Source of the DNA: an uncultured SAR324 cluster bacterium
GTDB lineage: Bacteria; SAR324; NAC60-12
Assembly (NCBI GenBank): GCA_902513935.1
Contig: CABXOR010000026.1
Location: 1 to 25,930 of the forward strand
DNA: 25,930 bases
Direction of reading: 5' to 3'
Positions 7,209-24,813 of this stretch are shown in pieces. Position 1 is the stretch's first letter. Every line of letters starts with the position of its first letter. Both the position numbers and the translations under genes were made by a program. The notes below the pieces were generated by a model. The model saw only the letters and a program-made list of their open reading frames with translations, ran no database searches and had not been told where the DNA came from.

Positions 7209-8678
7209 ATGGCAAAAGAAATTATTATAAATCACACTTCTCACGAAACCAGGGTTGCCGTGATTGAAGGTGGAGAACTATCAGAGCTTTATCACGAACG
7301 CGAAAAAACGATACGTCTTGTGGACAATATTTACAAGGGAAAGGTATTGAATGTTCTGCCTGGAATGGAGTCTGCCTTTGTTGATATTGGTTCTGAGAGG
7401 GCGGCATTTTTACATATTGATGACATTCTTCCGGAAAATGAAATTTTTGGGGAAACTCCTAATAATAATTTAGAACAACAAAAGATTGGTCAGTTGATTA
7501 AAGAAGGACAGGACGTTTTGGTGCAGGTTTCAAAGGGTCCAATTGGTACAAAGGGTGCCCGCATAACCAGTCATGTTTCAATTCCTGGGAGGAATCTCGT
7601 TTATTTGCCTGCTACAAAAACTCTTGGGGTTTCCCGTCAAATAAATCAGGAAAAAGAACGTGAGAGATTGAGGGAGATTGTGGACCGTTTACGTCCGGAA
7701 AATGCTGGATTCATCATCCGGACGGTTGCAGAAGGACACAGTGAAGAAGATTTGCATTCTGACATCAATTATCTGGTTTCTATTTGGAATGATATTCTGG
7801 AAAAATATAAAACACTTCCTGCTCCCTCGCTTCTGCATTCAGATCTGAATGTGATTTTCCGAACGATTCGTGATCTTTTTTCAGCAGATATCAGCAAGTT
7901 GGTTGTTGACGACAAAAGTCAGTTTAATAAGGTTCGTCAGTTTGTGCGCTCTTACTTGCCGCGATATGGGTCTGTAATTGAAAATTATACTAAAGCAGAA
8001 CCTGTTTTTGATCATTACGGAATCGAAAATGAAATTGACCGCGCTCTCGGGAACAAAGTCTGGCTGCGCTCCGGAGGTCACCTTGTAATCGATCAGACTG
8101 AAGCATTAACTGCAGTTGATGTGAATACAGGACGCTTCGTCGGTAAGGAAAGTCATGAAAAAACAATTTTGCGTACAAACATTGAAGCTGCTGAGGAAAT
8201 CGTTTACCAGCTGCAGCTGAGAAATATTGGCGGAATTATTATTATTGATTTCATTGATATGGAGACACAGCAGCACCGGCAAATTGTTTATCAGACCCTG
8301 AAGGACCAACTTCGTTCTGATAAGGCACGCAGCAAAATTCTGCAAATAAGTGAGATGGGCCTCGTCGAAATGACCCGCAAGCGTGATCGCGAAAACCTGA
8401 ACCGCTATCTGTGTGACCCTTGTCCGTATTGTGATGGAACAGGCCAGATAAAATCTCCGTCCACAGTTTGTTATGAAGCTTTCCGCGAAGTCCGTCGCAG
8501 CTGCCGTAGAAACACAAAAGGATCTGTTGCAATATTTTTGCACTCAGATGTTTTTAAATATATCCAGGAGGAAGAACAGGAAGCCCTCAAAACGCTGGAA
8601 AATGAAGTGGGCCGCAGCATTACCATTAAATTATCTGATGATTTGCACCGCGAACAATTTGAACTTTACGAATACTGA
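7209..8678 (+). CDS. rng: Ribonuclease G (Rne/Rng family)
   Basis: The 489-residue endoribonuclease processes 5' ends of rRNA and decays mRNA. An N-terminal S1-like domain occupies about residues 35-130. Metal-binding catalytic aspartates are Asp304 in TAVDVNTG and Asp347/Asp350 in IDFIDME. The zinc-link CPYCDGTG motif follows near residue 406. Length matches RNase G rather than RNase E, since the long C-terminal scaffold is absent. It starts 8 bases after pdxJ without a clear ribosome binding site, so coupling is likely. The following gene starts almost at its stop codon. Confidence 0.95.
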   Translation: MAKEIIINHTSHETRVAVIEGGELSELYHEREKTIRLVDNIYKGKVLNVLPGMESAFVDIGSERAAFLHIDDILPENEIFGETPNNNLEQQKIGQLIKEGQDVLVQVSKGPIGTKGARITSHVSIPGRNLVYLPATKTLGVSRQINQEKERERLREIVDRLRPENAGFIIRTVAEGHSEEDLHSDINYLVSIWNDILEKYKTLPAPSLLHSDLNVIFRTIRDLFSADISKLVVDDKSQFNKVRQFVRSYLPRYGSVIENYTKAEPVFDHYGIENEIDRALGNKVWLRSGGHLVIDQTEALTAVDVNTGRFVGKESHEKTILRTNIEAAEEIVYQLQLRNIGGIIIIDFIDMETQQHRQIVYQTLKDQLRSDKARSKILQISEMGLVEMTRKRDRENLNRYLCDPCPYCDGTGQIKSPSTVCYEAFREVRRSCRRNTKGSVAIFLHSDVFKYIQEEEQEALKTLENEVGRSITIKLSDDLHREQFELYEY

Positions 8679-8679
8679 G

Positions 8680-9414
8680 TTGACCAGAGAAACAGCCAGA
8701 CAAAATTTCAAGAATCACATTGTAGAAAACGTCTATCCGGGACGCGGGATTGTGATCGGCCGCAACCAGAAGAATTCGTGGATTGTTATATACTGGATTA
8801 TGGGCCGCAGTTCAAACAGTCGAAATAGAATTTTCAGGCACGAAAACGGAATATTACATACTGAAGTCGTCGATCCTTCTCTGGAGGAAGATCCGTCACT
8901 AATTATTTACAACGCCGTTCGTGATGTCGATGATTGTGTAGTTGTCACAAACGGAAGTCAGACCGATACAATTTGTGAAGGTTTTATGCAGGGTGAAAGT
9001 TTTTACGATTCACTGCACAAGGAAAAACATGAACCGGATGCACCGAATTTTACACCCCGTATTTCCGGAATGATAGAGCAAAAAAAATCATCAGTGACTT
9101 TGGCCAAAATCAGTAAAAGTGATTTTTCGGCAGAGCAGTCTGTCTATCATTTTTATCGCTATAATGAAACTGGAGCTGGATTTGGATATTGCCTGACCAC
9201 ATACATGGGCGACGGGAATCCGCTTCCCTCTTTCAAGGGTGAACCAATTCTGCTTCCGCTGGAAGGTGATGCAGAACAAATTGCTGAAAAATACTGGGAG
9301 GCGCTGAATCAGGACAATCGTATTTCTCTTTCCGTTAGGGAATTGACTGTCTCTGGAAAGGACAGCATGAAAATAACTAATCGCTTTGATTCCCGCGACG
9401 GGGAGAAAAAATAG
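8680..9414 (+). CDS. IMP cyclohydrolase (PurO-type, IMP_cyclohyd family)
   Basis: The 244-residue product resembles the bacterial branch of the archaeal-type IMP cyclohydrolase family, which closes FAICAR to IMP in the last step of purine synthesis. The N-terminal YPGRGIVIGRN, then YWIMGRSSNSRNRIF, a central NGSQTDT, and GFGYCLTTYMGDGNPLPSF are characteristic. The reading frame stays open upstream inside rng, but family N-termini begin about 15-20 residues before the PGRG motif. That favours the TTG at 8680, immediately after the rng stop; ATG at 8638 (overlapping rng) is the alternative. No strong ribosome binding site is seen, so coupling with rng is expected. Most bacteria use PurH for this step; whether this genome also has purH cannot be told. 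Confidence 0.8.
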   Translation: MTRETARQNFKNHIVENVYPGRGIVIGRNQKNSWIVIYWIMGRSSNSRNRIFRHENGILHTEVVDPSLEEDPSLIIYNAVRDVDDCVVVTNGSQTDTICEGFMQGESFYDSLHKEKHEPDAPNFTPRISGMIEQKKSSVTLAKISKSDFSAEQSVYHFYRYNETGAGFGYCLTTYMGDGNPLPSFKGEPILLPLEGDAEQIAEKYWEALNQDNRISLSVRELTVSGKDSMKITNRFDSRDGEKK

Positions 9415-11984: not shown

Positions 11985-12530
11985 ATGCAATATTGTACTG
12001 AAAAAAGCTGGTATGTACTCCGGGTACGCTCCCAGGCGGAGCGCTTGGTACACGTGGGTTTGCACCAAAAACAATTTGAGGTCCTCAATCCAACTTATCA
12101 GGCATTGAGTATTCGCAGGGACCGCAGAAAGGTTTTGACACGGCCTATTTTTAATGGATACATGTTCGTTCGCACCCTGCACAATCCAGAATGTTATTTG
12201 GAAATTCTAAAAACACCTGGGGTGGTTGAGATTTTGAAAAGCCCCAGTGGACCAACTCCTGTTCCGGAAGACCAGATTGAAAATGTCCGTTTGCTAGAAA
12301 AACACGTGGGGGCCTGTTTTTTTGGAACAGATTTTGAGGTTGGCGATGTCGTTTTTGTACGCGAAGGCCCGTTGACCGGTTTACGAGGTGTGATTGACAG
12401 GCGAGACCGCAAAAAACTGCACATCCACGTGGATGCGATTCCTGGGTCAGTGATGATAGACGTTGAACCGCATCAGGTACAGTTGGAAATAGACGCAGTC
12501 TATCAATTGGTTACTAACAGATTGAAATAA
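11985..12530 (+). CDS. NusG-like transcription antiterminator (RfaH/UpxY type)
   Basis: The 181-residue protein has an NGN domain (about residues 8-108, opening SWYVLRVRSQAERLVHVGL, with FNGYMFVR at 56-63 and a TPGVVEIL segment at 77-84). A KOW motif follows at about 118-140 (VGDVVFVREGPLTGLRGVI). Specialised NusG paralogues at the head of polysaccharide loci (RfaH, UpxY, LoaP) bind paused RNA polymerase and suppress termination through long operons. Its place between a glycan-locus regulator and a run of more than 12 kb of biosynthetic genes fits that role better than the housekeeping NusG, which normally sits beside secE and ribosomal genes. Confidence 0.85.
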   Translation: MQYCTEKSWYVLRVRSQAERLVHVGLHQKQFEVLNPTYQALSIRRDRRKVLTRPIFNGYMFVRTLHNPECYLEILKTPGVVEILKSPSGPTPVPEDQIENVRLLEKHVGACFFGTDFEVGDVVFVREGPLTGLRGVIDRRDRKKLHIHVDAIPGSVMIDVEPHQVQLEIDAVYQLVTNRLK

Positions 12531-12712: not shown

Positions 12713-12879
12713 TTATTAGTATAACTTAGATTTTGATAGACAGTTGATTGGTTTCAATCTGTTTTTTCACTAATCCAATCTGAGTTTATTAAAGACAGTT
12801 GTTTCATTTTAATGCGGAACACTTACGTGACGCAAATAGCGGAGCGATCCCAAAAACTTTTTTTGTTCGTGTCTTTTTC

Positions 12880-12908
12880 GTGTATTTCGCGGTAGCAAAA
12901 AAATACAC
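12880..12908 (+). promoter_or_regulatory. Hairpin with ops-like loop (GCGGTAGC)
   Basis: GTGTATTT (12880-12887) and AAATACAC (12901-12908) form a perfect 8-base stem around a 13-base loop containing GCGGTAGC. That is the core of the RfaH ops element (GGCGGTAGC). It lies in the leader between a NusG-paralogue gene and the glycan genes, on the transcribed strand. The same bases also resemble a widespread intergenic repeat (CACGAAATACACGAA type), so the match could be chance. Confidence 0.3.
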
Positions 12909-12970
12909 CCAGCATCACACCCCTGCCTTTTTGTCTTTGCTTGAGACAACAGCGCCCTGCTTTGAATTAG

Positions 12971-13120
12971 AAAGGCCTGTTTCTGCCATTCATAATATTG
13001 ATTTGGATGTATTCCCAGATTCTCACATACTTGTGATACTGGAACTCCATCTTGGGAGTGAGGCAGGACTGCTTTTGTTTTTTGAACTTCTGAAAATTTG
13101 CGACGTGGACGTCTGGACAT
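12971..13120 (-). pseudogene. Broken IS3-family OrfA transposase fragment
   Basis: The first 50 codons read as an OrfA helix-turn-helix: SRRPRRKFS at the N-terminus, then GVPVSQVCENLGIHPNQYYE and WQKQAF, close to the usual 'PVSxLCxELGIHPNQFYRWQKQ' pattern of this family. After residue 50 the frame runs into unrelated sequence and ends at 12809. A short A/G-rich site (AAGAGATG) precedes the ATG. It is not functional; no orfB or DDE catalytic domain is present. Confidence 0.65.
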
Positions 13121-13502: not shown

Positions 13503-14504
13503 ATGTTAAGAGATAAGAAGATATTAATAACGGGTGGGACTGGTTCTTTTGCCCATAAATTTGTTCCCATGACTCTCGCAAAATATAATCCGAAGAAGCT
13601 GATCATATTTTCCAGAGATGAGATGAAACAATGGGAAATGGCTAAATTATTTAATGGTGATGATCGGGTTCGATTTTTAATTGGTGATGTCAGAGATAAA
13701 GAAAGGCTATTTCGAGCCCTTGATGGCATTGACTATGTTGTCCATGCTGCAGCGACAAAAATTATTCCTACGGCAGAATACAACCCATTCGAATGTATTA
13801 AAACCAATATAAACGGTGCAATGAACCTGATTGATGCCTGTATAGATCAAAAGATAAAAAAGGTAGTCGCACTAAGTACAGATAAGGCGTGTAATCCGGT
13901 CAACTTATATGGGGCCACCAAACTGGCTTCCGATAAAGTGTTTATTGCGGCAAATGCCTATTCTGGAGAGCATCTGACTAGTTTTTCAGTTGTCAGATAT
14001 GGGAATGTAATGGGGAGTCGGGGTTCTGTTATTCCTTTTTTTCATTCTTTGAAAGATACGGGTGAAATTCCGATTACTGACACGCGAATGACGCGTTTCA
14101 TGATCACACTTGAACAAGGAGTTGAGCTTGTCTTCTCCGCTTTTGAGGATTCAATGGGAGGAGAAATTTATGTGAAAAAAATTCCTTCAATGAATATTGT
14201 TGATCTGGCAAAGGTCGTTGCTCCTGATGCAAAGCATAAAATCATTGGCATTAGACCTGGCGAAAAACTGCATGAACAAATGATAAGCACAGAAGACTCA
14301 TTTCATACATTTGAGTATGAGGATTACTATAAGATATTACCATCAATCTACAACTGTTCACGGGAATCCCAGCGAATTAATGGTGGCAAGAAATGTCAGG
14401 AAGGATTCAGTTATGCGAGTGATACCAATACAGAATGGATGAGTGTTGAGACGCTTCAAAAATGGATGGAGTCAGAATTAGGATCTGTTGTAAACAGTAA
14501 GTAA
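13503..14504 (+). CDS. pseB: UDP-N-acetylglucosamine 4,6-dehydratase (PseB-like)
   Basis: The 333-residue short-chain dehydrogenase/reductase catalyses the first step of pseudaminic-type synthesis, converting UDP-GlcNAc to a UDP-4-keto-6-deoxy-HexNAc by dehydration and C5 epimerisation. The NAD site GGTGSFA lies at about residues 11-17 (Ala where Gly is usual). Asp127-Lys128 in LSTDKA and Tyr136/Lys140 in YGATK are the expected catalytic residues. FSRDEMKQWEMA and the VRYGNVMGSRGSVIPFF segment are typical of PseB. Length is normal. AGGA five bases upstream supports the start. It opens the biosynthetic run, followed after 51 bases by the fused reductase/aminotransferase gene. The related capsule enzyme FnlA/WbjB is the main alternative. 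Confidence 0.9.
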   Translation: MLRDKKILITGGTGSFAHKFVPMTLAKYNPKKLIIFSRDEMKQWEMAKLFNGDDRVRFLIGDVRDKERLFRALDGIDYVVHAAATKIIPTAEYNPFECIKTNINGAMNLIDACIDQKIKKVVALSTDKACNPVNLYGATKLASDKVFIAANAYSGEHLTSFSVVRYGNVMGSRGSVIPFFHSLKDTGEIPITDTRMTRFMITLEQGVELVFSAFEDSMGGEIYVKKIPSMNIVDLAKVVAPDAKHKIIGIRPGEKLHEQMISTEDSFHTFEYEDYYKILPSIYNCSRESQRINGGKKCQEGFSYASDTNTEWMSVETLQKWMESELGSVVNSK

Positions 14505-14555
14505 TCCGGAACAAAATCAGGGAATTTTAAATTTAAACCGTGAATTAGTTGTAAA

Positions 14556-16667
14556 ATGATACCTTCAAAAATGCTGATCACTGGGGTGAGTGGCTTGTTG
14601 GGAAATAACCTGTCGCTTTATTTCAGGGATAAATTCAAAGTTCTAGGGCTTAGTCATCAAAATCCAGTTGTAATCCCAGGAGTTAGTTTTGAATTGGTCG
14701 ACTTAAGAAAAAAAGACCAGGTTGAAAGACTAATTTCGCAGTTTTCGCCTGATATCATAATACATTGTGCTTCGTTGACCAAAGTCGATTATTGTGAGGA
14801 AAACCCGGAGGAAGCAACGGCATCGAATGTCAACTCAACACAAAATCTCTTGGATTGTATCGAAAAGGATTCTCGTGTTAAATTTATTTTCATTTCAACA
14901 GACTCTGTTTATGGTGAAAACGAAGGCTCTCAACACACAGAAGAAATCACAGGACCCTGCAACGTGTACGGAAAGACAAAACTTCAAGGGGAGAATGTTG
15001 TAGTTGATATCCCAAATTCTCTCATCCTCAGGACAAACATTTTCGGCTGGAATATCCAGGACAAAAACAGCCTGGGAGAGTGGATACTTCATGAACTTAA
15101 GCAACGGAATCAAATCAGAGGATTTAAAGATGCATTCTTTTCGACAATCTACACCTTTGAATTAGCCAGGATTATTGATACATCAATTAGAAATAATATA
15201 GCCGGGGTGTATAATTGCGGAAGCCGGGATTCTTGTTCCAAATTTGATTTTGCGGTAAAACTGGCGGACATGTTCGGGTTTGATAGAAATCTAATAAACT
15301 CAATTTTTATAGATCAGCATAATTTCAAAGCCAAACGAAGTAAAGATCTCTCCTTGAGTGTTGACAAAATAGAAAAAGCATTGGGTTTTCAACTTCCTTC
15401 AATCGATTTTTCTTTGGAGCAGTTTTATCGCGACTATCAAAAAGGTTTACCTGCTGATATTAAAACAAACCACCAGCAGTCAAAGAACATTTTCAATGAT
15501 ATCCCCTATGGTCGGCAATGGATAGACGCCGAAGATATTTTGGCAATTGAGGAAGTTCTAACATCACAGAATTTAACTCAGGGACCGAAAGTAACAGCTT
15601 TTGAAGAAGCACTAAAAAACGTCACTGGTGCGGGTCATGCGGTTGCTGTAAATTCAGGGACATCCGCGCTTCACATCGCATGCCTAACCACAGGTGTTAC
15701 GGTTGGTGATGAAGTGATTACATCTCCAAACACGTTTGTAGCCTCTGCAAACTGTGCCGTATTCTGCGGGGCAAAACCTGTATTTGCAGATATTGATGCA
15801 AGAACATATAATATATCTCCGCAAGAGATCGAGAAAAGGATTACACCGAATACTAAAGCAATAATACCGGTTCATTTTGCGGGGCAGAGCGCCGATATGG
15901 AAAGTATTCACCAACTTGTTAAGACTGCTGAAAAAAAATATGGCCATAAAATTTACATTATTGAAGACGCAAGTCATGCTTTAGGCTCTGTGTATAGGAA
16001 TACCAATGTTGGATCGTGCACATATTCGGACATGACCGTTTTTAGTTTTCACCCGGTTAAACACATTACAACTGGAGAGGGAGGAGCAGTTCTTTCCAAT
16101 GATGAAAACATTGACAAAAGACTTCGGCTATTCAGTAGCCACGGTATCACCAGGGATCACGATCTCTTAAAAAATAATCTGGGTCCTTGGTATTATGAGC
16201 AGATTAATTTGGGATACAACTATCGAATCACGGATATTCAGAGTGCGTTGGGAATTTCTCAATTGAAAAAACTTTCAACTTTCAGGAATCGTCGCCGGGA
16301 AATTGTAGACCGCTATAATAATGAATTACAAAGTATCCCTCTTTTGCAAATACCGTTTGAATCAAAAGACTGCCAATCCAATTTCCATTTATATGTCATT
16401 CTGTTTGATTATGAAAAAGCAGGCAGGACGAGAAATAATTTTAAAGAAGCCCTACAAGCAGAAAATATATTGACTCAAATTCACTATATACCAGTTCATA
16501 CTCATCCATATTACCTGACAAATTTCGGGACAAAATGGGGTGACTATCCAAAAGCAGAAAACTATTTTGCAAAATGTCTGTCAATTCCGCTTTATCCCGC
16601 AATGAGCGATAATGATGTCACAAAAGTTATTGAAACTATAAAAGATACATGTAGAGGGAACAGATGA
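14556..16667 (+). CDS. Fusion: RmlD-like sugar-nucleotide reductase + PseC aminotransferase
   Basis: The 703-residue protein joins two enzymes usually encoded separately. Residues 1 to about 300 form an RmlD-type SDR: GVSGLLGN near residue 10, HCASLTKVDYCE, and the Tyr138/Lys142 pair in VYGKTK. Residues about 318-703 form a DegT/DnrJ aminotransferase of PseC type: PYGRQWIDAEDI, VAVNSGTSALHIAC, EDASHALGS, and SFHPVKHITTGEGGA with PLP lysine 502. PseC transaminates the 4-keto group of the PseB product. An RmlD domain would instead reduce a keto group to a hydroxyl, so both domains may act on the same intermediate. No stop or frameshift separates them. The end overlaps the next gene by four bases (ATGA). 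Confidence 0.88.
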   Translation: MIPSKMLITGVSGLLGNNLSLYFRDKFKVLGLSHQNPVVIPGVSFELVDLRKKDQVERLISQFSPDIIIHCASLTKVDYCEENPEEATASNVNSTQNLLDCIEKDSRVKFIFISTDSVYGENEGSQHTEEITGPCNVYGKTKLQGENVVVDIPNSLILRTNIFGWNIQDKNSLGEWILHELKQRNQIRGFKDAFFSTIYTFELARIIDTSIRNNIAGVYNCGSRDSCSKFDFAVKLADMFGFDRNLINSIFIDQHNFKAKRSKDLSLSVDKIEKALGFQLPSIDFSLEQFYRDYQKGLPADIKTNHQQSKNIFNDIPYGRQWIDAEDILAIEEVLTSQNLTQGPKVTAFEEALKNVTGAGHAVAVNSGTSALHIACLTTGVTVGDEVITSPNTFVASANCAVFCGAKPVFADIDARTYNISPQEIEKRITPNTKAIIPVHFAGQSADMESIHQLVKTAEKKYGHKIYIIEDASHALGSVYRNTNVGSCTYSDMTVFSFHPVKHITTGEGGAVLSNDENIDKRLRLFSSHGITRDHDLLKNNLGPWYYEQINLGYNYRITDIQSALGISQLKKLSTFRNRRREIVDRYNNELQSIPLLQIPFESKDCQSNFHLYVILFDYEKAGRTRNNFKEALQAENILTQIHYIPVHTHPYYLTNFGTKWGDYPKAENYFAKCLSIPLYPAMSDNDVTKVIETIKDTCRGNR

Positions 16668-17980
16668 GTATACAAAAAAGTTTAGCAATGCAGGAAAGAG
16701 CCAGGAATAGAATCCCAGGCATGACTCAATTGTTATCAAAACGACCCGATATGTTCGCAGAGGGCATATGGCCAGCTTATTACCAAAAAGCAGATGGGGT
16801 TGAAGTCTGGGATCTGGATGGAAATCGGTATATTGATATGAGTATTAGCGGCATAGGCGCCAATGTTCTCGGCTATGCCGATCCGGATGTTGATCAGGCA
16901 ATCTTGGAGGCCATATCAAATGGAACCAGCTGCTCTCTTAACTGTCCTGAAGAAGTTGAACTAGCTGAGTTATTGTGCGAATTGCATCCTTGGGCGGAGA
17001 TGGTTCGTTTTTCTCGTACAGGAGGTGAATCTATGGCAATTGCTGTTAGAATAGCGCGAGCTCACACGGGTCGAGATAAAATCGCGTTTTGCGGTTATCA
17101 TGGATGGCACGATTGGTATCTTGCAGCTAATTTAAATTCAGAAGAGGCATTAGATGATCATTTGCTTCCTGGTTTGAGTCCTCTTGGGGTTCCTAGCGGA
17201 TTATCAGGAACGGCTATTCCATTTCATTACAATCAACTTCAGGAATTGGAGGCGGTTGTATCTAAAAATCGTCAGGATATAGCTGCAATCGTCATGGAAC
17301 CGATTCGAAGTGAGAAACCCCACCCAGCATTTTTAGAAGGGGTTCGTTCCATTGCTGATGACATTGGTGCTGTGCTGGTTATCGACGAGATTTCAGCAGG
17401 TTTTCGAACCAATACGGGGGGGGCTCATCTGAATTTAGGGTTGGAGCCAGATATAGCCGTATTTTCGAAAGCGTTGGGCAATGGCTATCCCATCGGTGCA
17501 ATTATTGGGAATTCATCTGTGATGGATACCGTCCAAAAAACTTTTATTAGTAGTACTTGTTGGACAGAAAGAATCGGGCCAGTGGCAGCATTAGCTTGTA
17601 TCAAAAAGCATAAGGAAGTGAATGCAGGGGCTTGTTTAACGGCGATTGGTCAGCAAGTTCAAGACGGATGGCGGCGTTGTGGTGAACAAAATGAATTGAA
17701 GATTCAAGTCAGCGGAATTCCTCCGTTGAGCCACTTTACTTTTGAATATGAGAATGCACTGAGTGTAAAAGCACTCTTTATCCAACTAATGCTTGAAAAA
17801 GGTTTTTTGGCTTCGAATCTGTTCTATGCAATGGTCGCTCATCAATCAGAACATGTTGTAAAATATATTCAGGCTGTAGACGAATCTTTCTCTTTTATTC
17901 GAGAGGTGTTAGAGAATGGAACTCTAGAGACCCACCTGAAAGGAAAACCTTCAGGAAGTGGATTTAAACGTCTAACCTAA
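16664..17980 (+). CDS. Class III aminotransferase (glutamate-1-semialdehyde aminomutase-like)
   Basis: The 438-residue PLP enzyme has fold-type I features of the GSA aminomutase/class III family: VEVWDLDGNRYIDMSISG, FSRTGGESMAIAVRIAR, CGYHGWHDWY, the cofactor-binding Asp241 in VIDEISAGFR, and Schiff-base Lys269 in FSKALGNGYPIGA. Its four-base overlap with the upstream fusion gene and the aldo/keto reductase start four bases after it indicate a role in the sugar pathway rather than tetrapyrrole synthesis. Known pseudaminic and legionaminic acid pathways do not need this enzyme. It may install an extra amino group or make an activated side-chain (inference). The substrate is not deducible from sequence. 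Confidence 0.85.
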   Translation: MSIQKSLAMQERARNRIPGMTQLLSKRPDMFAEGIWPAYYQKADGVEVWDLDGNRYIDMSISGIGANVLGYADPDVDQAILEAISNGTSCSLNCPEEVELAELLCELHPWAEMVRFSRTGGESMAIAVRIARAHTGRDKIAFCGYHGWHDWYLAANLNSEEALDDHLLPGLSPLGVPSGLSGTAIPFHYNQLQELEAVVSKNRQDIAAIVMEPIRSEKPHPAFLEGVRSIADDIGAVLVIDEISAGFRTNTGGAHLNLGLEPDIAVFSKALGNGYPIGAIIGNSSVMDTVQKTFISSTCWTERIGPVAALACIKKHKEVNAGACLTAIGQQVQDGWRRCGEQNELKIQVSGIPPLSHFTFEYENALSVKALFIQLMLEKGFLASNLFYAMVAHQSEHVVKYIQAVDESFSFIREVLENGTLETHLKGKPSGSGFKRLT

Positions 17981-17983
17981 TTT

Positions 17984-18913
17984 ATGATGGCTTTGACCAT
18001 GCCAGATGCTTTAAATGGACGTCTTGTTTTAGGGACAGCGCAATTGGGAATGTCCTATGGAATTGCAAACATAACAGGACAGCCTGATCAACAATTGACA
18101 ACCAATATTATTCGAGAAGCTTGGACGAGTGGTATTCACGAATTTGACACAGCACAAGGGTATGGCATTAGTGAAAGCGTTTTAGGAAACGCTTTTTCCG
18201 CATTGAAGATTACAGAAAAAGTTCGGGTAATCAGTAAGTTTGATCCTAGCTTAGATCATTTAAATCATGATGTAATGTGGAATACTCTTGATGCCTCCTT
18301 AAAGGCGTTGAAGGTAGCAAAGCTCTATGGGATGCTCCTGCATCATCAGGAAACGATGATTTTATGGGAAAAGGGGTTAAAAGAAATTTGTCAGACTTTT
18401 ATCGATTCTGGTAAAGTGCAATATTTGGGGGTTTCGGTTTATTCTCCAACGGCTGCAATCAAAGCTTTAAATTCAGATGGAATTTATTTGATTCAGCTTC
18501 CATCCAATATTCTTGACCGACGTTTTGAAGAAGCAGGTGTTTTCGAAACTGCTCAAGAAAAAGGGAAACAGGTTTATATTCGTAGCGCCTTTCTTCAGGG
18601 ATTGATATTAATGTCTCTTGATAAGATTCCAGATAATATGGGTTATGCCAAACCAGTTCTTCAGCGACTTAACCAATTAAGGCTGGAAACAGGATTAACC
18701 TTGCAGGAAATTGCCTTGGGGTATTTGAAAATGGAAATGCCGGATGCTCGGATGGTTTTAGGTGTAGAACATATTTTTCAGTTAAAACAAAACTTGGAAT
18801 CTTGGGGCAAGACCTATTCTCCTGCTTTAATCCCAAAGATTAAAACAATGTTTACAAATATTGATGAAAACATCTTAAATCCAGTTTTATGGCCTCCTGT
18901 CATTTCTAAATAA
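17984..18913 (+). CDS. Aldo/keto reductase
   Basis: The 309-residue NAD(P)H-dependent oxidoreductase has the aldo/keto reductase layout and the likely catalytic tetrad Asp55 and Tyr60 (EFDTAQGYG), Lys85 (VISKFD) and His120 (LLHHQE). Further family signs are GTAQLGMSYGI at the N-terminus and VLGVEHIFQL near the cofactor end. It probably reduces a carbonyl on a sugar or side-chain intermediate. Its tight spacing with the class III aminotransferase suggests the two act in sequence (a reduced or aminated carbon), but the substrate is unknown. Two tandem ATGs start the frame, and no clear ribosome binding site is present. Confidence 0.85.
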   Translation: MMALTMPDALNGRLVLGTAQLGMSYGIANITGQPDQQLTTNIIREAWTSGIHEFDTAQGYGISESVLGNAFSALKITEKVRVISKFDPSLDHLNHDVMWNTLDASLKALKVAKLYGMLLHHQETMILWEKGLKEICQTFIDSGKVQYLGVSVYSPTAAIKALNSDGIYLIQLPSNILDRRFEEAGVFETAQEKGKQVYIRSAFLQGLILMSLDKIPDNMGYAKPVLQRLNQLRLETGLTLQEIALGYLKMEMPDARMVLGVEHIFQLKQNLESWGKTYSPALIPKIKTMFTNIDENILNPVLWPPVISK

Positions 18914-18949
18914 ATTTTTGAAACATTCACCATTTTATATAAGATTCGC

Positions 18950-20002
18950 ATGCAGGAAATAAAGATGGGTTCCAAGTTACTCAGTCATTCGAACCCAACT
19001 TATATTATTGCTGAAATGTCAGCCAATCATGGGGGCAGTTTTGACAAAGCTATTGCTATCATACATGCCGCAAAAGAATGCGGAGTAGATGCCATTAAGT
19101 TACAAACTTATAGAGCCGATACCATTACCCTTGATTCTGATAAAGATGACTTTCTAATTCCTTCTGAAAATCCATGGGAATCTCATAAAACTTTGTTTTC
19201 ACTTTATGAAAAGGCTTATACCCCATGGGAGTGGCATGAAGGTCTTATCTTGGAAGGTAAAAAATTAGGGCTGGATGTGTTTTCCTCCCCATTCGATTGT
19301 TCAGCGATCGATTTTTTGGAAAGTTTAGATGTTTCTGCCTATAAAATTGCGTCTCCAGAAATTACAGATATTCCATTAATCCAAAAAATTGGAGCAACCA
19401 AAAAACCGGTCATTCTTTCTACTGGGGTTGCGAATCTAGAAGATATAGCACTTGCAGTCAAAACTCTTAAGGGCCAGGGGTGCCCTGGAATTGTTCTATT
19501 GAAGTGTACAACCGCTTATCCTGCCCCTCCTGATGAACTTAATTTGCGAACCATTCCTCATATGGCAGAGATGTTCGATTGTTTAGTCGGTATTTCTGAC
19601 CATACTCTTGGTGTAGGGGTCCCCATAGCTGCTGTAAGCCTTGGGGCAAAGATGATTGAAAAGCATTTTACCTTGGCAAGAGATGATGGCTCTGTTGACG
19701 ATTTTTTTTCGTTGATTCCTGAAGAGTTTAAGCTAATGGTTGATGAAGTAAGAAAAGTGGAAAAAGCATTAGGAAAAGTGACCTATGATCCAACTCCTGA
19801 ATCCCAAAAAAATAGTTGGGTACGGAGATCACTCTATATTTCTAAAGCAATAAAAAAGGGTGAAAAATTAAATTTGGACAATGTAAAGTCGGTACGTCCA
19901 GGTTTTGGATTACACCCAAAGTACCTGGATGATGTTTTGGGTAAAAAGATAAACAGGGACTTGGAAAAAGGAGATCGACTTTCCTGGAATGTAATTGAAT
20001 AA
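18950..20002 (+). CDS. pseI: Pseudaminic acid synthase-like (NeuB/PseI family)
   Basis: The 350-residue enzyme condenses phosphoenolpyruvate with a six-carbon amino sugar to give a nine-carbon nonulosonic acid. The NeuB barrel (about 15-280) shows YIIAEMSANHGGSFDKA, AIKLQTYRADTIT, AYTPWEWH, FSSPFD, YKIASPEITD and STGVANLEDI. EKHFTLARDDGSVDDFFSL is typical of the PseI branch. A C-terminal SAF/antifreeze-like domain (about 290-350) completes the family layout. The second ATG at 18965 has AGGA seven bases upstream and may be the true start; the first gives the fuller N-terminus. The name PseI rests on phrase similarity, and a legionaminic-type substrate is not excluded. Confidence 0.88.
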   Translation: MQEIKMGSKLLSHSNPTYIIAEMSANHGGSFDKAIAIIHAAKECGVDAIKLQTYRADTITLDSDKDDFLIPSENPWESHKTLFSLYEKAYTPWEWHEGLILEGKKLGLDVFSSPFDCSAIDFLESLDVSAYKIASPEITDIPLIQKIGATKKPVILSTGVANLEDIALAVKTLKGQGCPGIVLLKCTTAYPAPPDELNLRTIPHMAEMFDCLVGISDHTLGVGVPIAAVSLGAKMIEKHFTLARDDGSVDDFFSLIPEEFKLMVDEVRKVEKALGKVTYDPTPESQKNSWVRRSLYISKAIKKGEKLNLDNVKSVRPGFGLHPKYLDDVLGKKINRDLEKGDRLSWNVIE

Positions 20003-20015
20003 GTTAGGGAGATAG

Positions 20016-20774
20016 ATGATTGGTGCTATTGTACAAGCAAGGATGACTTCGAGTAGACTTCCTGGAAAGGTTTTAATGGCCGTTCGAGGAAAAACCATGA
20101 TTGAGTACTTATTCGCTCAACTTCAACGGATTCAGAAATTAGACAAGATCATTTTAGCAACGACTATCAACTCAGAAGACGATCCTCTTGTGGAATATGC
20201 GGAAAAACATCAGATAGCTTATTTTAGAGGATCAGAACATGATGTTTTGGAAAGATATTATAAAGCTGCAACCGAGTATAATCTCCAACATATTCTAAGA
20301 ATTACAGGAGATTGCCCATTGCTTGATCCTGCTATTTGCGATCAAATCATTGATTTATATCTTAAGGAAAAAGCCGATGTAGTAGGAACAGGGCTAACTT
20401 TTGCGGAAGGAGAAGATTGTGAAATATTTTCTCTATCAGCGATAATAGAGGCACATCAGAAAGCAAAATTAAAATCGGAAAGAGAGCATGTCTCTTTGTT
20501 TTTATATAATCGAAAAGACCACTACAAAGTCATTGAAGTTCAAAATGAAACGGATGATAGTCAATATCGATTTACTTTAGATGAACCAGAAGATTTCCAA
20601 GTGATTGAGGCCATTATTAACGGCATTTCTCTGAAACCTTCAGAAATATTTACTGTGGAAAAAGTTAAATCTTTCTTGGATCTACATCCTGAAATATTCC
20701 GGTTGAATACCAGCATTGTTAGGAATGAAGGATTACTGATTTCATTGGGAAAAGATGAATCGGTTAATCAATAA
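20016..20774 (+). CDS. SpsF-like cytidylyltransferase (CMP-sugar synthetase family)
   Basis: The 252-residue nucleotidyltransferase has the nucleotide-binding QARMTSSRLPGKVL (7-20), YFRGSEHDVLERYYKAA (69-85) and LRITGDCPLLDP with Asp99, as in Bacillus SpsF and KDO/acylneuraminate cytidylyltransferases. It most likely activates the nonulosonic acid to its CMP form, the job done by PseF in Campylobacter. No separate pseF is visible. Start is supported by AGGGAG four bases upstream, 13 bases after the pseI stop. The pairing SpsE(NeuB)-SpsF-SpsG is known from spore-coat glycan loci. Confidence 0.85.
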   Translation: MIGAIVQARMTSSRLPGKVLMAVRGKTMIEYLFAQLQRIQKLDKIILATTINSEDDPLVEYAEKHQIAYFRGSEHDVLERYYKAATEYNLQHILRITGDCPLLDPAICDQIIDLYLKEKADVVGTGLTFAEGEDCEIFSLSAIIEAHQKAKLKSEREHVSLFLYNRKDHYKVIEVQNETDDSQYRFTLDEPEDFQVIEAIINGISLKPSEIFTVEKVKSFLDLHPEIFRLNTSIVRNEGLLISLGKDESVNQ

Positions 20775-20866
20775 CTATTCTAGAGGACAATGAAGCTTAA
20801 TGAGTTTTAGGAAAAATATTAAAACTTTTTAATCAATACAAAAACCTATTATCTTTACCAATTAGT

Positions 20867-21862
20867 GTGAATAAACGATTCCTTTTTAGATGCGATGCTG
20901 ATCAAAAAAATGGTTTTGGACATTTTTCTAGGTGTCTTAACTTGGCAAGGGGAATCAAAACAAAATATCCAAGTGCCGATTTATCTTTTTTCGGTAACTT
21001 TAATGAGTTTGCCACTAACTTATTAAAAAACTACCAGATTGATCAGATTTTAATTCCGCCCCGATTAAACAATGATCATAAGTATCAATTAGGCATAGCT
21101 AAGGAGTATGACTATTTCGTCCTGGATAGCTACCTAATTGAGCAAGATTATATAGATTGCTTTTCAAATCAAAGTTTTAAATTTGTCAAAATAGATGATT
21201 TCAATGACCTTAACTTAGAAGAGGTGGATTTAACGGTTAATTTTTGTTTTCAGGCACACAAATTTAGTTATCTATCTAAAAAAGTATGTTTGGGGGTATC
21301 CTATTTTCCGGTCCGAGAAGAACTAAAATCTATTCGCATTAAAAATGAGAAATACCTGAATGAAACGATAGAAAAGATTGTGATCTTTATTGGCGGAGCA
21401 GATCATTACAATGTCGGTGAAAAAGTCATTATCAGTTTGGATGAGATGTTTAGTAATATCAAAATCAACCTCATCACTTCAAAACCTTCAAACAATCATT
21501 TTGAGACCTTACATTCTAATGATATTTCCTGTTTGCCTGTTATTCCAGAAATAGAAACTTACTTAGCAGATGCTGATATGGTGGTTACTGGAGGAGGCTT
21601 GACCAAATATGAGTGTGCATACTGCGGCATTCCCAATGCCTCTCTAACACAAACCTCTGACGTCTATGCCGAAGCACAATCCTTTGCAGAAGCAGGATTG
21701 ACCTACGATTTAGGGATGGCTGTTGATTTTGAAAAACAGAAAATAATTAATGATATTACTCGGTTGAGTTCTTTTTCTTTGAGGAAAACGATGGTGGCTC
21801 ATTGCAATGAGAACTTTATCCTTAACTCTACTCAAAATTTTGTTGATTCAATCATAAATTAA
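20867..21862 (+). CDS. pseG: PseG/SpsG-like UDP-sugar hydrolase
   Basis: The 331-residue protein has a GT-B-like fold: N-terminal FRCDADQKNGFGHFSRCL, with His19 in the glycine-rich loop typical of PseG, and a C-terminal IGGADHYN, VVTGGGLTKYECAYCGIP. PseG hydrolyses UDP from the 2,4-diacetamido-trideoxy-altrose before the PseI step. The SpsG name applies to spore-coat homologues. Start is GTG at 20867 with no clear ribosome binding site; it lies 92 bases after the spsF-like gene. From here onward the locus becomes visibly more AT-rich. Confidence 0.8.
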   Translation: MNKRFLFRCDADQKNGFGHFSRCLNLARGIKTKYPSADLSFFGNFNEFATNLLKNYQIDQILIPPRLNNDHKYQLGIAKEYDYFVLDSYLIEQDYIDCFSNQSFKFVKIDDFNDLNLEEVDLTVNFCFQAHKFSYLSKKVCLGVSYFPVREELKSIRIKNEKYLNETIEKIVIFIGGADHYNVGEKVIISLDEMFSNIKINLITSKPSNNHFETLHSNDISCLPVIPEIETYLADADMVVTGGGLTKYECAYCGIPNASLTQTSDVYAEAQSFAEAGLTYDLGMAVDFEKQKIINDITRLSSFSLRKTMVAHCNENFILNSTQNFVDSIIN

Positions 21863-21877
21863 AAAATTTAGTCTTTC

Positions 21878-22549
21878 ATGAATCAAATTGAAATAAAAAA
21901 AACAGAATGGGATGATCAAGCAGATAGCACCGATAACCCTTGTCATCAGGTATGTAGAACGGTAGACAACTCAGAGTTGGCAGAACTGATCACTGACATA
22001 ACCATTAAACTGAGTATCCCCAATCAGCTACCCAGTATTCTAGATATTGGTTGTGGGAATGGGTTAGTATTAAGTCATTTTAAAAAAAACTTTACAACGG
22101 TTTATGGGGTCGATTTTTCTCCTAAGATGGTAGAAGCCGCTCAACAACTTATTCCTGATGGTAAATTTCAGCAAGGTGAAGCCACTACCCTCAAATTTGC
22201 GGATGATCAATTTGACAGGATTCTCTCTTATAGCATTTTTCATTACTTTCCTGATGAGGAATATGCGATCAATGCGATACAGGAAATGATTCGAGTTTGT
22301 AAAAAGGGTGGGGTTATCTTGATCGGCGATATGTTGGATCAAAATTATGAAAATGATATTAAGGGTGGCAGTAATTTGGAGTACGAAAAGAAAATTCCTA
22401 TTATTCAAAGGTACTCTCAGTGGATTTTCTATGATTTAGTAAAGCTACAACAAACTGTTGAACAACAAGGATATAAAGTTGAAATTCTCTCCCAATCCGA
22501 ACACTTTAAATGTGCCCACTATAGAAAAGATCTAAGAATTTACACATGA
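21878..22549 (+). CDS. Class I SAM-dependent methyltransferase
   Basis: The 223-residue protein has the SAM-binding DIGCGNG at residues 56-62, the acidic strand-2 end VYGVDFSPKMVEAA, and the later FDRILSYSIFHYFPDEE and CKKGGVILIGDM motifs of Methyltransf_11-type enzymes. It lies 15 bases after the PseG-like gene and overlaps the next gene by four bases (ATGA), so it likely O- or N-methylates the sugar or a substituent. The specific target is not deducible. Confidence 0.82.
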   Translation: MNQIEIKKTEWDDQADSTDNPCHQVCRTVDNSELAELITDITIKLSIPNQLPSILDIGCGNGLVLSHFKKNFTTVYGVDFSPKMVEAAQQLIPDGKFQQGEATTLKFADDQFDRILSYSIFHYFPDEEYAINAIQEMIRVCKKGGVILIGDMLDQNYENDIKGGSNLEYEKKIPIIQRYSQWIFYDLVKLQQTVEQQGYKVEILSQSEHFKCAHYRKDLRIYT

Positions 22550-23496
22550 CTGCTTTATTTGAAGAAGAATTACAAACGTTAACGCAAAGACAATTTGTTT
22601 TGCCGACCAGTTCCGGTAGCACTGCTATCATTGCTTCCTTGATCGCTTCTGGTATACCTCCTCACTCGGAGGTCATTATACCTTCGATTTGTTGTGCCGC
22701 TGTATTGTTTGCTATAAACCTTGCTGGTTTTACTCCTGTTTTAGCAGATGTCAGCAAAGAAGATTTTTGCATGGATACAGAAAATATAGCATCTGAAATG
22801 TCCTCAAAGACGAAGGCAATCATTGCTATACACTCGTATGGGCGATATTGTAAAATTCAAGAAATACAAAATTTTTCTGAAGAAAATGGATTATTTCTCA
22901 TTGAAGACGCATGTCTTGGTTTGGGAGGAATGATCAATGAAAAGCCATTTGGTAGTTTTGGGGGAATTAGTATATTTAGTTTTGGGTATGACAAAATTAT
23001 TGATGCTGGAGGAGGAGGTGCGCTGGTTACTGAGAATGTTGACCTATTTCAAAAAGCTCAGGCATTTTTAAGAAATAATCGTTATTTTTCTTATCAAGGG
23101 GACTCCGAACACTTAAATTTTATCAAACGAAAACTTAATACTCTTCCAGAAGCAATCAAGATCAGAAATACGAACGCAAAAATCTATCATGAACATCTGA
23201 GTCAAAAAAAGTTTTCCAAACCTCCATTTAAGGAAAATATTGTTTACTGGCGATATTCAGCCTTATATGAAGGAAATCGGAATTTATTGGTTGAAAGTGC
23301 AAAAAAAGAAGGTGTCATCATTACGGCGCATTATAAAGGGTTGCATCAACTTAGAACCGGAGAAGTTCTGCCGAACTCCGAACTGATTTCCAACCAGATC
23401 ATCAACTTATTCGTAAAACCTGAAACTCCTTCAGAGCAAATTCATAAAACAATCTCCTTTATTAATGAATTCGAAGATAATTCTTTAAGAGTATAG
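22546..23496 (+). CDS. DegT/DnrJ/EryC1 family aminotransferase
   Basis: The 316-residue PLP enzyme is shorter than the usual 370-400 residues, mainly at the N-terminus. It carries LPTSSGSTAIIASLIASG, EVIIPSICCAA, the cofactor Asp121 in LIEDACLGLGG, and the Schiff-base region SFGYDKIIDAGGGGA with Lys150 (SFHxxKxxxxGEGG in most members). The active site therefore looks intact. It is the second DegT enzyme in the locus and is translationally coupled to the methyltransferase, suggesting they add a methylated amino group. The missing N-terminus might narrow the substrate choice (inference). Confidence 0.83.
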   Translation: MTALFEEELQTLTQRQFVLPTSSGSTAIIASLIASGIPPHSEVIIPSICCAAVLFAINLAGFTPVLADVSKEDFCMDTENIASEMSSKTKAIIAIHSYGRYCKIQEIQNFSEENGLFLIEDACLGLGGMINEKPFGSFGGISIFSFGYDKIIDAGGGGALVTENVDLFQKAQAFLRNNRYFSYQGDSEHLNFIKRKLNTLPEAIKIRNTNAKIYHEHLSQKKFSKPPFKENIVYWRYSALYEGNRNLLVESAKKEGVIITAHYKGLHQLRTGEVLPNSELISNQIINLFVKPETPSEQIHKTISFINEFEDNSLRV

Positions 23497-23564: not shown

Positions 23565-24266
23565 ATGAGAGGTTCAATACTCCAACCGACTTACCTACCC
23601 TGGTCTGGGTATTTCGAGATGATCGATGCTACCGATACCTTTGTTATCTATGATCATGTTCAGTTTGTGCGAAAAAGTTGGCAGAAGAGGAATAAAATTA
23701 AAAGTGCTGCGGGAATAATTCAATTATCCTTGCCTGTAAAAAAGGCACCTCGAAATGCTCCGATCTATGAGATTGAGATTTCATATGATAGGAGCAATCC
23801 GTTACTTGAGCACTGGAAAACCATTCAGCATGAATATCAGAAAGCTCCTTTTTTTGAAAACTACTGTGAGGAATTTGATAAGATCTACCAAAAAAAATAT
23901 GAATTATTACGAGACCTCAATGTTGAAATAATTCAAACAATTTGCAAAATTTTAGGCATTAAAACCACGTTTGTTTATGCTTCTGATCTTAACATAGATG
24001 ACGAGAATTTAGGAAAATCAGAGAGAGTGATCAACTTATGCAAGAAAGCGGGGCTTTCCTATCTATACGATGCAAAAGGTGCGGAGAGTTTTCTGGATGT
24101 GTCAATGTTTGAAAAAGAAAACTTGGAAATAAAATTTCAAAACTATCAACCTACCCATTATCCTCAACTATATAATGATCATGTGGAATACCTCTCCATC
24201 ATTGATATGCTTTTTAATATGGGAGATGAGACCCTAAACATGATTAGAGCAGGCAGATTAGATTAG
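23565..24266 (+). CDS. WbqC family protein
   Basis: The 233-residue protein matches the WbqC family found in O-antigen and exopolysaccharide loci: ILQPTYLPWSGYFEMID at the N-terminus, VIYDHVQFVRKSWQKRNKIK, and the C-terminal YQPTHYPQ with a LSIIDMLFNMG segment. The biochemical role of the family is not established; it usually sits beside DegT aminotransferases, as here. It follows a 68-base gap and lies 10 bases before the acetyltransferase frame. No predicted signal or membrane segment is present. Confidence 0.85.
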   Translation: MRGSILQPTYLPWSGYFEMIDATDTFVIYDHVQFVRKSWQKRNKIKSAAGIIQLSLPVKKAPRNAPIYEIEISYDRSNPLLEHWKTIQHEYQKAPFFENYCEEFDKIYQKKYELLRDLNVEIIQTICKILGIKTTFVYASDLNIDDENLGKSERVINLCKKAGLSYLYDAKGAESFLDVSMFEKENLEIKFQNYQPTHYPQLYNDHVEYLSIIDMLFNMGDETLNMIRAGRLD

Positions 24267-24276
24267 ACTTATTTGT

Positions 24277-24813
24277 ATGGTAGTTGTTAATATTGAAACA
24301 GATCGTTTAATTTTAAAAAATTTAGAAATAGAGGATCTTTCTATAGATTATGTTAATTGGCTAAACGATCCCGATATAAATAAATATTTAAATCCCTCTG
24401 AAAATATTCAGACTCTGGAAAGCTGTAAAGGATATGTTAAATCTTTCCAAAATACGAATGAAAAGGCTCTAATTGGAATCTTTTTTAAAGAGAATAAATT
24501 ACATATTGGGAATCTGACTCTTTCAACATTAGATTTTAGAAGAAATTTAGGAATTATTGGTGTCAGCCTAGGGAGAAAATAATATATGAGTAAAGGGTTA
24601 GCACTGGAAGCACTAATTGGATTAAGGAATTATTGCTTTCATAAAATAAAATTACACAGATTAGAAGCCTATACCTCTGAAAAAAATTTAGATTCAATCA
24701 AATTATTTCTAAGAAGTGGATTTAAGGTAGAAGGATTATTAAGAGAGTCCGAACTAATGGATGGTAAGTACCATGATACCTATTTATTAAGCGTTTTGGA
24801 ATCAGATTTATAA
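24277..24813 (+). pseudogene. GNAT N-acetyltransferase interrupted by one in-frame stop
   Basis: Two pieces lie in the same reading frame: 24277-24582 (101 codons) and 24586-24813 (75 codons). They are separated only by a TAA (24580-24582) and one sense codon. Together they make a 178-residue RimJ/RimL-type GNAT domain of normal length: IETDRLILKNLEIEDL at the N-terminus, GVSLGRK-stop-Y-MSKGLALEAL where the acetyl-CoA loop belongs, and LHRLEAYTSEKNLDSIKLF near the C-terminus. Family members read 'GDKxYWGKGYATEA', so the stop replaces one ordinary residue. In this setting it could do the PseH step (N-acetylation at C4). An AGGGAG lies ten bases before the second ATG, so the halves might still be made separately. 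A decaying pseudogene is the simpler reading. Confidence 0.75.
24570..24575 (+). promoter_or_regulatory. Ribosome binding site before the second half of the split acetyltransferase
   Basis: AGGGAG lies ten bases upstream of ATG 24586, immediately 5' of the interrupting TAA. It may permit reinitiation of the C-terminal half, or be a chance part of the original coding sequence (Leu-Gly-Arg-Lys codons). Confidence 0.35.

Follow-up and report, generated by a model that had tools for sequence, protein, structure and literature searches.

A 25,930-nt contig of an uncultured SAR324 cluster bacterium (CABXOR010000026.1, assembly GCA_902513935.1; the whole stretch is called the window below) carries a nonulosonic acid (NulO) operon in which a class III aminotransferase (AT3) and an aldo/keto reductase (AKR) are accompanied by an SpsF-type cytidylyltransferase. 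Our comparison of related loci gives good support to a functional unit composed of an oxidoreductase, a transaminase and a cytidine monophosphate (CMP)-sugar synthetase. We consider it evenly balanced whether this is a NulO operon with a three-enzyme module for late modification and with C8 as the most likely position of amination. Slightly more tentatively, we propose a third, post-condensation branch of NulO biosynthesis in bacteria and archaea, in which an exchangeable AKR or Gfo/Idh enzyme and a class III transaminase would aminate C8 around CMP activation.

An aminotransferase and an oxidoreductase within a NulO operon

The operon runs on the plus strand in the order PseB, RmlD-PseC, AT3, AKR, PseI, SpsF and PseG, and the run of genes goes on past 21862. 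AT3 (16664..17980) is a HemL-like pyridoxal phosphate (PLP) aminotransferase (PF00202, E 8e-45), and AKR (17984..18913; PF00248, E 3e-27) is its redox partner. The PseC and AT3 genes overlap by 4 nt and a gap of 3 nt separates AT3 from AKR, which bears out an earlier sequence-only reading in which the two enzymes were described as tightly coupled between PseC and PseI. That reading also listed a core of PseB, PseC, PseG, PseI and a cytidylyltransferase. Profiles confirm PseB (UDP-GlcNAc 4,6-dehydratase, 5-inverting; 13503..14504; TIGR03589, 534.8 bits, cut-off 407.75), the PseC aminotransferase domain (15501..16667; TIGR03588, 501.3 bits, cut-off 423.5), the NulO synthase PseI with its NeuB and SAF domains (18950..20002; TIGR03586, 479.2 bits, cut-off 340.25) and the SpsF-type enzyme (20016..20774; PF02348), which we propose to be the CMP-NulO synthetase. 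The PseG-like UDP-sugar hydrolase (20867..21862) falls below its cut-off (TIGR03590, 121.9 bits, cut-off 153.55), and an RmlD-type reductase domain in the PseC gene had been overlooked. As the same reading held, we know of no step for AT3 or AKR in the described pseudaminic or legionaminic acid pathways.

The pair recurs with NulO genes across bacteria and archaea

The AT3 of the window was scanned against one genome per species. At least 587 stretches matched (585 relatives), and the best 80 loci were kept. By profile annotation, 63 of these 80 AT3-centred loci contain at least two NulO genes, among them PseB in 44, PseC in 52, PseI in 52, PseG in 35, SpsF in 57 and PseF in 5. The loci span Deltaproteobacteria, Omnitrophota, Chloroflexi, Planctomycetota, candidate-phylum bacteria and archaea (Methanoregula, Methanothrix and Halovenus). 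SpsF or PseF is present in 62/80; the SpsF count is 57/80 or 58/80 depending on how overlapping open reading frames (ORFs) are handled. We rejected AT3 as a substitute for PseC in most loci, given the 52/63 in which PseC is present. Family profiles were derived from the AT3-centred loci themselves, with seeds for Gfo, GNAT and PIG-L hand-picked from a clustering (from which ten proteins were scanned) and a PseF profile built from 12 of 16 low-scoring cytidylyltransferases. Frames were called from the first start codon, so that some ORFs extend too far at the 5' end. In L030 and L035, loci titled Burkholderiales and Betaproteobacteria, the synthase match falls within ORFs 888 and 924 aa long.

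A second sample was chosen without reference to AT3. PseI (TIGR03586) exceeded its cut-off in 28/297 genomes of one phylum and 61/398 of another, and the best PseI place per genome was taken, with about 16 kb where the contig allowed, giving 89 loci (L150-L238). L118 and L119 were left out, their PseI scores being under the cut-off, and the two samples overlap in one genome, that of Pseudodesulfovibrio pelocollis SB368 (L159 and L022), which was reached through AT3. AT3 was found in 16/89 loci, 14 of them with SpsF, one with PseF (L160) and one with neither (L230, where the contig is cut), so that 15 of the 16 have one of the two cytidylyltransferases. Counting redox genes at 80 bits or more, we found 11 AKR and 4 Gfo/Idh genes among the 89 loci, and all 15 lie inside AT3 loci. 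Fisher tests on the 89 loci, which ignore relatedness, gave 4e-16 for AT3 with a redox gene and 2.6e-6 for AT3 with SpsF. The order PseB-PseC-AKR-SpsF-AT3-PseG-PseI recurs in L154, L157, L183 and L233. The pair thus belongs to a conserved module and recurs in related loci of many bacteria and some archaea; its absence from such loci had been named beforehand as grounds for abandoning the idea.

Two unrelated oxidoreductases share one slot

In many loci the place of AKR is held by a different gene, and the three such proteins scanned (from L019, L048 and L061) are Gfo/Idh/MocA dehydrogenases. On a tree of 97 AT3 sequences, 47 are accompanied by AKR, 26 by Gfo, none by both and 24 by neither, counted within 2.5 kb of AT3 or SpsF (another count used 4 kb around AT3). 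The AKR/Gfo label changes 11 times on this tree, at least six of these changes being forced by the starred branches; the tree was made by a quick method and 40/93 of its inner branches are weak. The window, with its AKR, fits the pattern of one oxidoreductase per locus. That two unrelated families of NAD(P) oxidoreductases interchange beside the same transaminase suggests that they carry out a redox step that feeds it.

The residues that we take to be catalytic in each family are well conserved. K269 and D241 of AT3 are kept in 97/97 aligned rows, including the window; D55, Y60 and K85 of AKR are kept in 49/50 rows and H120 in 48/50; and E96 of Gfo is kept in 29/29. Judging from these residues, both AKR and Gfo/Idh look active. 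An AlphaFold2 model of AT3 (pLDDT 87), which speaks only to the class of enzyme and not to its substrate, has FumI and HemL (glutamate-1-semialdehyde aminomutase, GSAM) as its structural neighbors in a near tie. AT3 shares with them the fold, the PLP lysine and the aspartate but is 25-30 percent identical to the rows of GSAM and FumI. C-6' aminotransferases were not among the 50 structural neighbors listed. The hemL profile TIGR00713 gave 197.5 bits, far under its cut-off of 527.3, and the best NCBIfam match, PRK06209, gave 248.2 bits against a cut-off of 486. A housekeeping role as HemL was rejected on the basis of the TIGR00713 score and the gene context.

Link to CMP activation

Fusions with SpsF involve AT3 in 6/80 AT3-centred loci and AKR in 2/80. 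Among the PseI-anchored AT3 loci, AT3 and SpsF form a single ORF in 5/16, and 7 of the 120 listed homologues of AT3 have both domains. In addition, a 2,034-base gene of Pseudosulfitobacter (L082), annotated as a class III aminotransferase, has a length that would accommodate both. These fusions suggest that the substrate of the pair is most likely the nine-carbon sugar, at a point near the transfer of CMP.

The sequence-only reading held that an SpsF-type enzyme takes the position of PseF and treated this as odd. SpsF in fact lies after PseI in the window, and the notion of an anomaly was rejected, since SpsF is a common alternative: of the 89 PseI-anchored loci, 31 have SpsF, 43 have PseF, none has both and 15 have neither (6e-13 by a Fisher test, which again ignores relatedness). 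This exclusion does suggest that SpsF substitutes for PseF in its role. The SpsF of the window gave no match to TIGR03584 (PseF) at E<=1e-3 in the NCBIfam profile scan, and its best matches there are KdsB models, all under cut-off. The PseF label was compared with the same collection for three loci: the enzyme of L209 reaches 339 bits (cut-off 205.7), while those of L160 and L062 match PseF best yet fall below the cut-off. What we cite from publications here and below refers to the passages covered. In Bacillus subtilis, spsF is required for the transfer of legionaminic acid to the spore surface and not for its synthesis, although complementation of the mutant failed (PMC7439481). This result is in line with a role as CMP synthetase.

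The RmlD-PseC fusion

The PseC gene of the window (ORF 14556-16667, 703 aa) is a fusion with a full RmlD-type NAD(P) reductase domain in front (14556..15470; residues 5-294; PF04321, E 3.3e-44; motifs GVSGLLG and YGKTK), followed by the PseC domain at residues 316-698. Searching for the fusion at E<=1e-150, with a few of the best candidates scored per genome in two genome sets, yielded matches in 1/297 genomes, that one already reached through AT3, and in 10/285, of which one had likewise been reached. The nine loci fetched through the fusion alone (L241-L249) contain AKR in 9/9 and AT3 in 7/9, and the contigs of the two without AT3 (L243 and L249) end shortly after AKR. Both domains are present in all of the best 120 listed homologues of the fusion. 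The fusion is tied to the AT3/AKR module, at least in the phylum of the 10/285 matches, and no RmlD gene over threshold was found in any of the 89 PseI-anchored loci. Four further loci have RmlD and AT3 without PseC: L073 and, from Dasania sp. GY-MA-18, L078, both with AKR and about 10 kb on both flanks, L051, with AKR, and L014, where no redox gene was found; the last two have less flanking sequence. By profile score, the synthases of L073 and L078 are closer to NeuB than to PseI, both scores lying under the cut-offs.

Proposed pathway

We suggest that PseB, PseC (with an acetyltransferase), PseG and PseI would build a 5,7-diamino-9-deoxy NulO. AKR, or Gfo/Idh elsewhere, would then act as an NAD(P)-dependent dehydrogenase that converts a free hydroxyl of the NulO to a ketone, AT3 would use PLP and an amino donor to turn the ketone into an amine, and SpsF would join the aminated sugar to CMP. 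Were C8 the site, as seems most likely, CH3-CHOH would become CH3-CO and then CH3-CHNH2, giving a CMP-8-amino-NulO. The comparisons show the gene content and its conservation, the interchange of AKR and Gfo, the fusions to SpsF and the retention of catalytic-type residues, whereas which way the redox step runs, what its substrate is and that C8 is chosen over C4 are inferred. Amination of the sugar by the module appears likely, and C8 is a best guess, about as apt to be right as wrong. The extra amino group postulated by the sequence-only reading is the best interpretation; the reduced carbon that it offered as another option has a lower likelihood than an oxidation with subsequent amination.

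The choice of carbon follows from pathway chemistry. C5 holds the nitrogen of GlcNAc, C6 provides the ring oxygen, C7 holds the nitrogen introduced by PseC and C9 is deoxy, so that C8 and C4 remain. Pathway reasoning disfavors aminating the hexose ahead of condensation, because C3 must provide the ring oxygen. Two points favor C8: an O-antigen is known to contain an 8-amino nonulosonic acid, and FumI is among the closest folds to AT3. FumI acts on an amine adjoining a methyl group, as would be the case at C8. The source of the known sugar, Flexibacter maritimus, is presumably the same organism as Tenacibaculum maritimum. The sugar was reported from the F. maritimus O-antigen (PMC3210612; PMC4052302), and the passages covered of the T. 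maritimum genome paper (PMC5561996) contained nothing on such a cluster. By analogy, the module would resemble Kdo8N biosynthesis, in which a 3-deoxy-2-keto acid is oxidized, transaminated and CMP-activated. There the enzymes are the dehydrogenase KdnB, the aminotransferase KdnA and KdsB, which belong to other families and act on an 8-carbon sugar.

Counterevidence and alternative explanations

Several observations weigh against late amination at C8. Fewer than two NulO genes were found in 17/80 AT3-centred loci, and in L028 and L039 a relative of AT3 lies near a Gfo/Idh gene without NulO genes; the AT3 family is therefore wider than the NulO pathway, and this arrangement suggests that the same chemistry may be used on other sugars. 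No AKR or Gfo lies within 2.5 kb in 10 of the 62 AT3-centred loci with SpsF or PseF, and 17/31 SpsF loci of the PseI-anchored sample lack AT3. The redox counts leave out matches under the threshold, namely one AKR at 55 bits and Gfo at 70, 63, 48 and 20 bits. The link to SpsF is not strict, as AT3 and Gfo/Idh adjoin a PseF-like enzyme in L160 and L062, where PseF can perhaps stand in for SpsF. The RmlD domain of the window has no place in the mechanism. Finally, two published systems point away from it. Vibrio B9-25K2, with its AKR-SpsF protein, makes a product that has the mass of Pse5Ac7Ac with different retention and fragmentation, so AKR may serve in forming an isomer. In Legionella non-1 serogroups the O-chain sugar is described as having nitrogen substituents at positions 5 and 7 only, and Sg6 and Sg12 carry the cluster (PMC3694923). 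This last point is tempered by a region with neuABC, which every strain of L. pneumophila is said to possess (PMC3766260) and which could make that sugar.

The same Legionella data bear on an unlikely alternative, in which the pair acts at C4 to give a 4-amino sugar or, if the oxidation is reversible, a sugar epimerized at C4, for instance 4-epilegionaminic acid. The second hydroxyl left free is that of C4, and D-glycero-D-talo sugars are reported in the non-1 serogroups, while Sg6 and Sg12 have loci with the same gene set. However, the neuABC region could again account for that sugar, epimer formation needs no aminotransferase, and we met no 4-amino NulO in the literature passages covered. 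We see an equally small chance that the redox enzyme and AT3 produce or alter an N-acyl group, placed on C5 or C7 by the acetyltransferases of the cluster, leaving the sugar chain alone. NulO N-acyl groups are diverse (lactoyl in Psychrobacter, 3-hydroxybutyryl in Flexibacter; PMC3210612 for the latter), and GNAT genes are frequent (27/63 AT3-centred loci with at least two NulO genes). The fusions argue otherwise, joining AT3 or AKR to a cytidylyltransferase, as does Aeromonas subgroup IA, described as having the pair but lacking pseH (PMC7874193).

Alternatively, AKR or Gfo may oxidize C8 and another reductase reverse the step to give an 8-epimer, AT3 doing something separate. Vibrio B9-25K2 would fit this, having an AKR-SpsF fusion, a dehydrogenase and a product of Pse5Ac7Ac mass that differs in retention and fragmentation (PMC7371886). 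So would the RmlD-type reductase fused to PseC in the window, in view of the nine fusion-fetched loci that all have AKR. Yet no RmlD gene exceeds the threshold in the PseI-anchored loci, and a redox role independent of AT3 would not predict that AKR and Gfo/Idh exceed the threshold there only in the presence of AT3 (15/15); we regard this explanation as improbable, on a par with the two preceding ones. By far the least probable is that the genes are chance neighbors, the product being plain pseudaminic acid and both enzymes dispensable. Co-occurrence, exchange of the redox partner, fusions and conserved residues all speak against it, and chance adjacency was rejected on the basis of the 89 PseI loci and the tree of AT3.

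Comparison with described clusters

The locus had been thought unusual, a view that did not hold, because the gene set is common and is drawn in published Aeromonas and Legionella clusters. Relative to the pseudaminic acid pathway (PseB-C-H-G-I-F), the window shares PseB, PseC and PseI over curated cut-offs and has a PseG-like hydrolase under its cut-off; it differs in having an SpsF-type enzyme for PseF, the added AKR and AT3 and RmlD fused to PseC, and in that an acetyltransferase is seen only as two short downstream ORFs. Group I, subgroup IA, of the Aeromonas flagellin glycosylation islands has pseB, pseC, a reductase, a class III aminotransferase, pseG and pseI; unlike in the window, its cytidylyltransferase is called pseF and no RmlD fusion is described (PMC7874193). 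The reductase is printed there as 'alpha/keto reductase', which we read as aldo/keto, and subgroups IA-IE, by addition 90/96 strains, carry the pair. The O-antigen cluster of Legionella pneumophila Sg6/Sg12 has PseG, a HemL-like aminotransferase, a cytidylyltransferase, AKR, DegT, CapD and NeuB close together and, unlike the window, HisF/HisH-type and further genes (PMC3694923). The nab cluster of Vibrio B9-25K2 is a Pse-type cluster with AKR and an SpsF-like cytidylyltransferase, fused in that case, whose authors suggest that SpsF may replace NeuA; unlike in the window, no aminotransferase beyond PseC is mentioned, and a dehydrogenase follows (PMC7371886). All three clusters were compared by description, and the passages covered of these papers give the AT3/AKR pair no step.

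The flagellin sugars of A. hydrophila gave oxonium ions at m/z 404.4 (AH-1) and 377.2 (AH-3). By the nitrogen rule the AH-1 ion would imply an odd number of nitrogens, to which we give little weight: the resolution is low, the formula proposed by the authors contains no nitrogen, and AH-1 is named as an example for Group I or III with its subgroup not stated. The A. hydrophila strains under Group I fall in IA/IB, with the pair, and no such pair is described for Group II (PMC7874193).

Nor does the sugar have to be undescribed, as had been suggested, for the chemistry of an 8-amino nonulosonic acid is on record (PMC3210612). In the open-access literature searched, outside of which most subscription papers lie, we found neither a biosynthesis of the 8-amino sugar nor a step for AT3/AKR. 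As far as searched, this type of cluster has been seen before, and what is new is the reading as an exchangeable redox enzyme, transaminase and CMP synthetase together with the proposal of C8.

Other genes of the window

The run continues on the same strand with a SAM methyltransferase (21878..22549; PF08241), a short DegT-family aminotransferase of 316 aa (22546..23496; PF01041, the profile match beginning at position 27 of 360), which is LegC/PseC-like with scores under the cut-offs, and a WbqC-like protein (23565..24266; PF08889), also present in some related loci. The search for PseH in the window found only two adjacent short GNAT-like ORFs (24277..24813; 24277-24582 and 24586-24813), the first matching PF13302 weakly at 24.0 bits, under the cut-off of 25.4. 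They are possibly a broken PseH-like gene, and the split may reflect a broken gene or a sequencing slip.

Upstream of the operon, inspection by eye suggests a NusG/RfaH-like protein (11985-12530) and, between it and PseB, a small transposase-like ORF on the minus strand (12809-13120). L082 too has a NusG-family gene upstream of its pse operon, but on the opposite strand. Further away, ORFs 8473-9414 and 7209-8678, which are in different frames, have about 200 bases in common and adjoin a gene that by eye is RNase E/G-like; the true start of the former probably lies further in.

Implications

About one in six PseI loci (16/89, two phyla) have AT3, nearly always with a redox partner, so that some of the sugars now called pseudaminic acid on the strength of their genes may be different compounds. 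The module offers a sequence signature for predicting such sugars and a testable route to an 8-amino sugar. If our proposal is true, it would supply the route that is missing for the known 8-amino-pentadeoxynonulosonic acid, and amine-bearing sialic-acid-like sugars would be common on the cell surfaces of bacteria and archaea.

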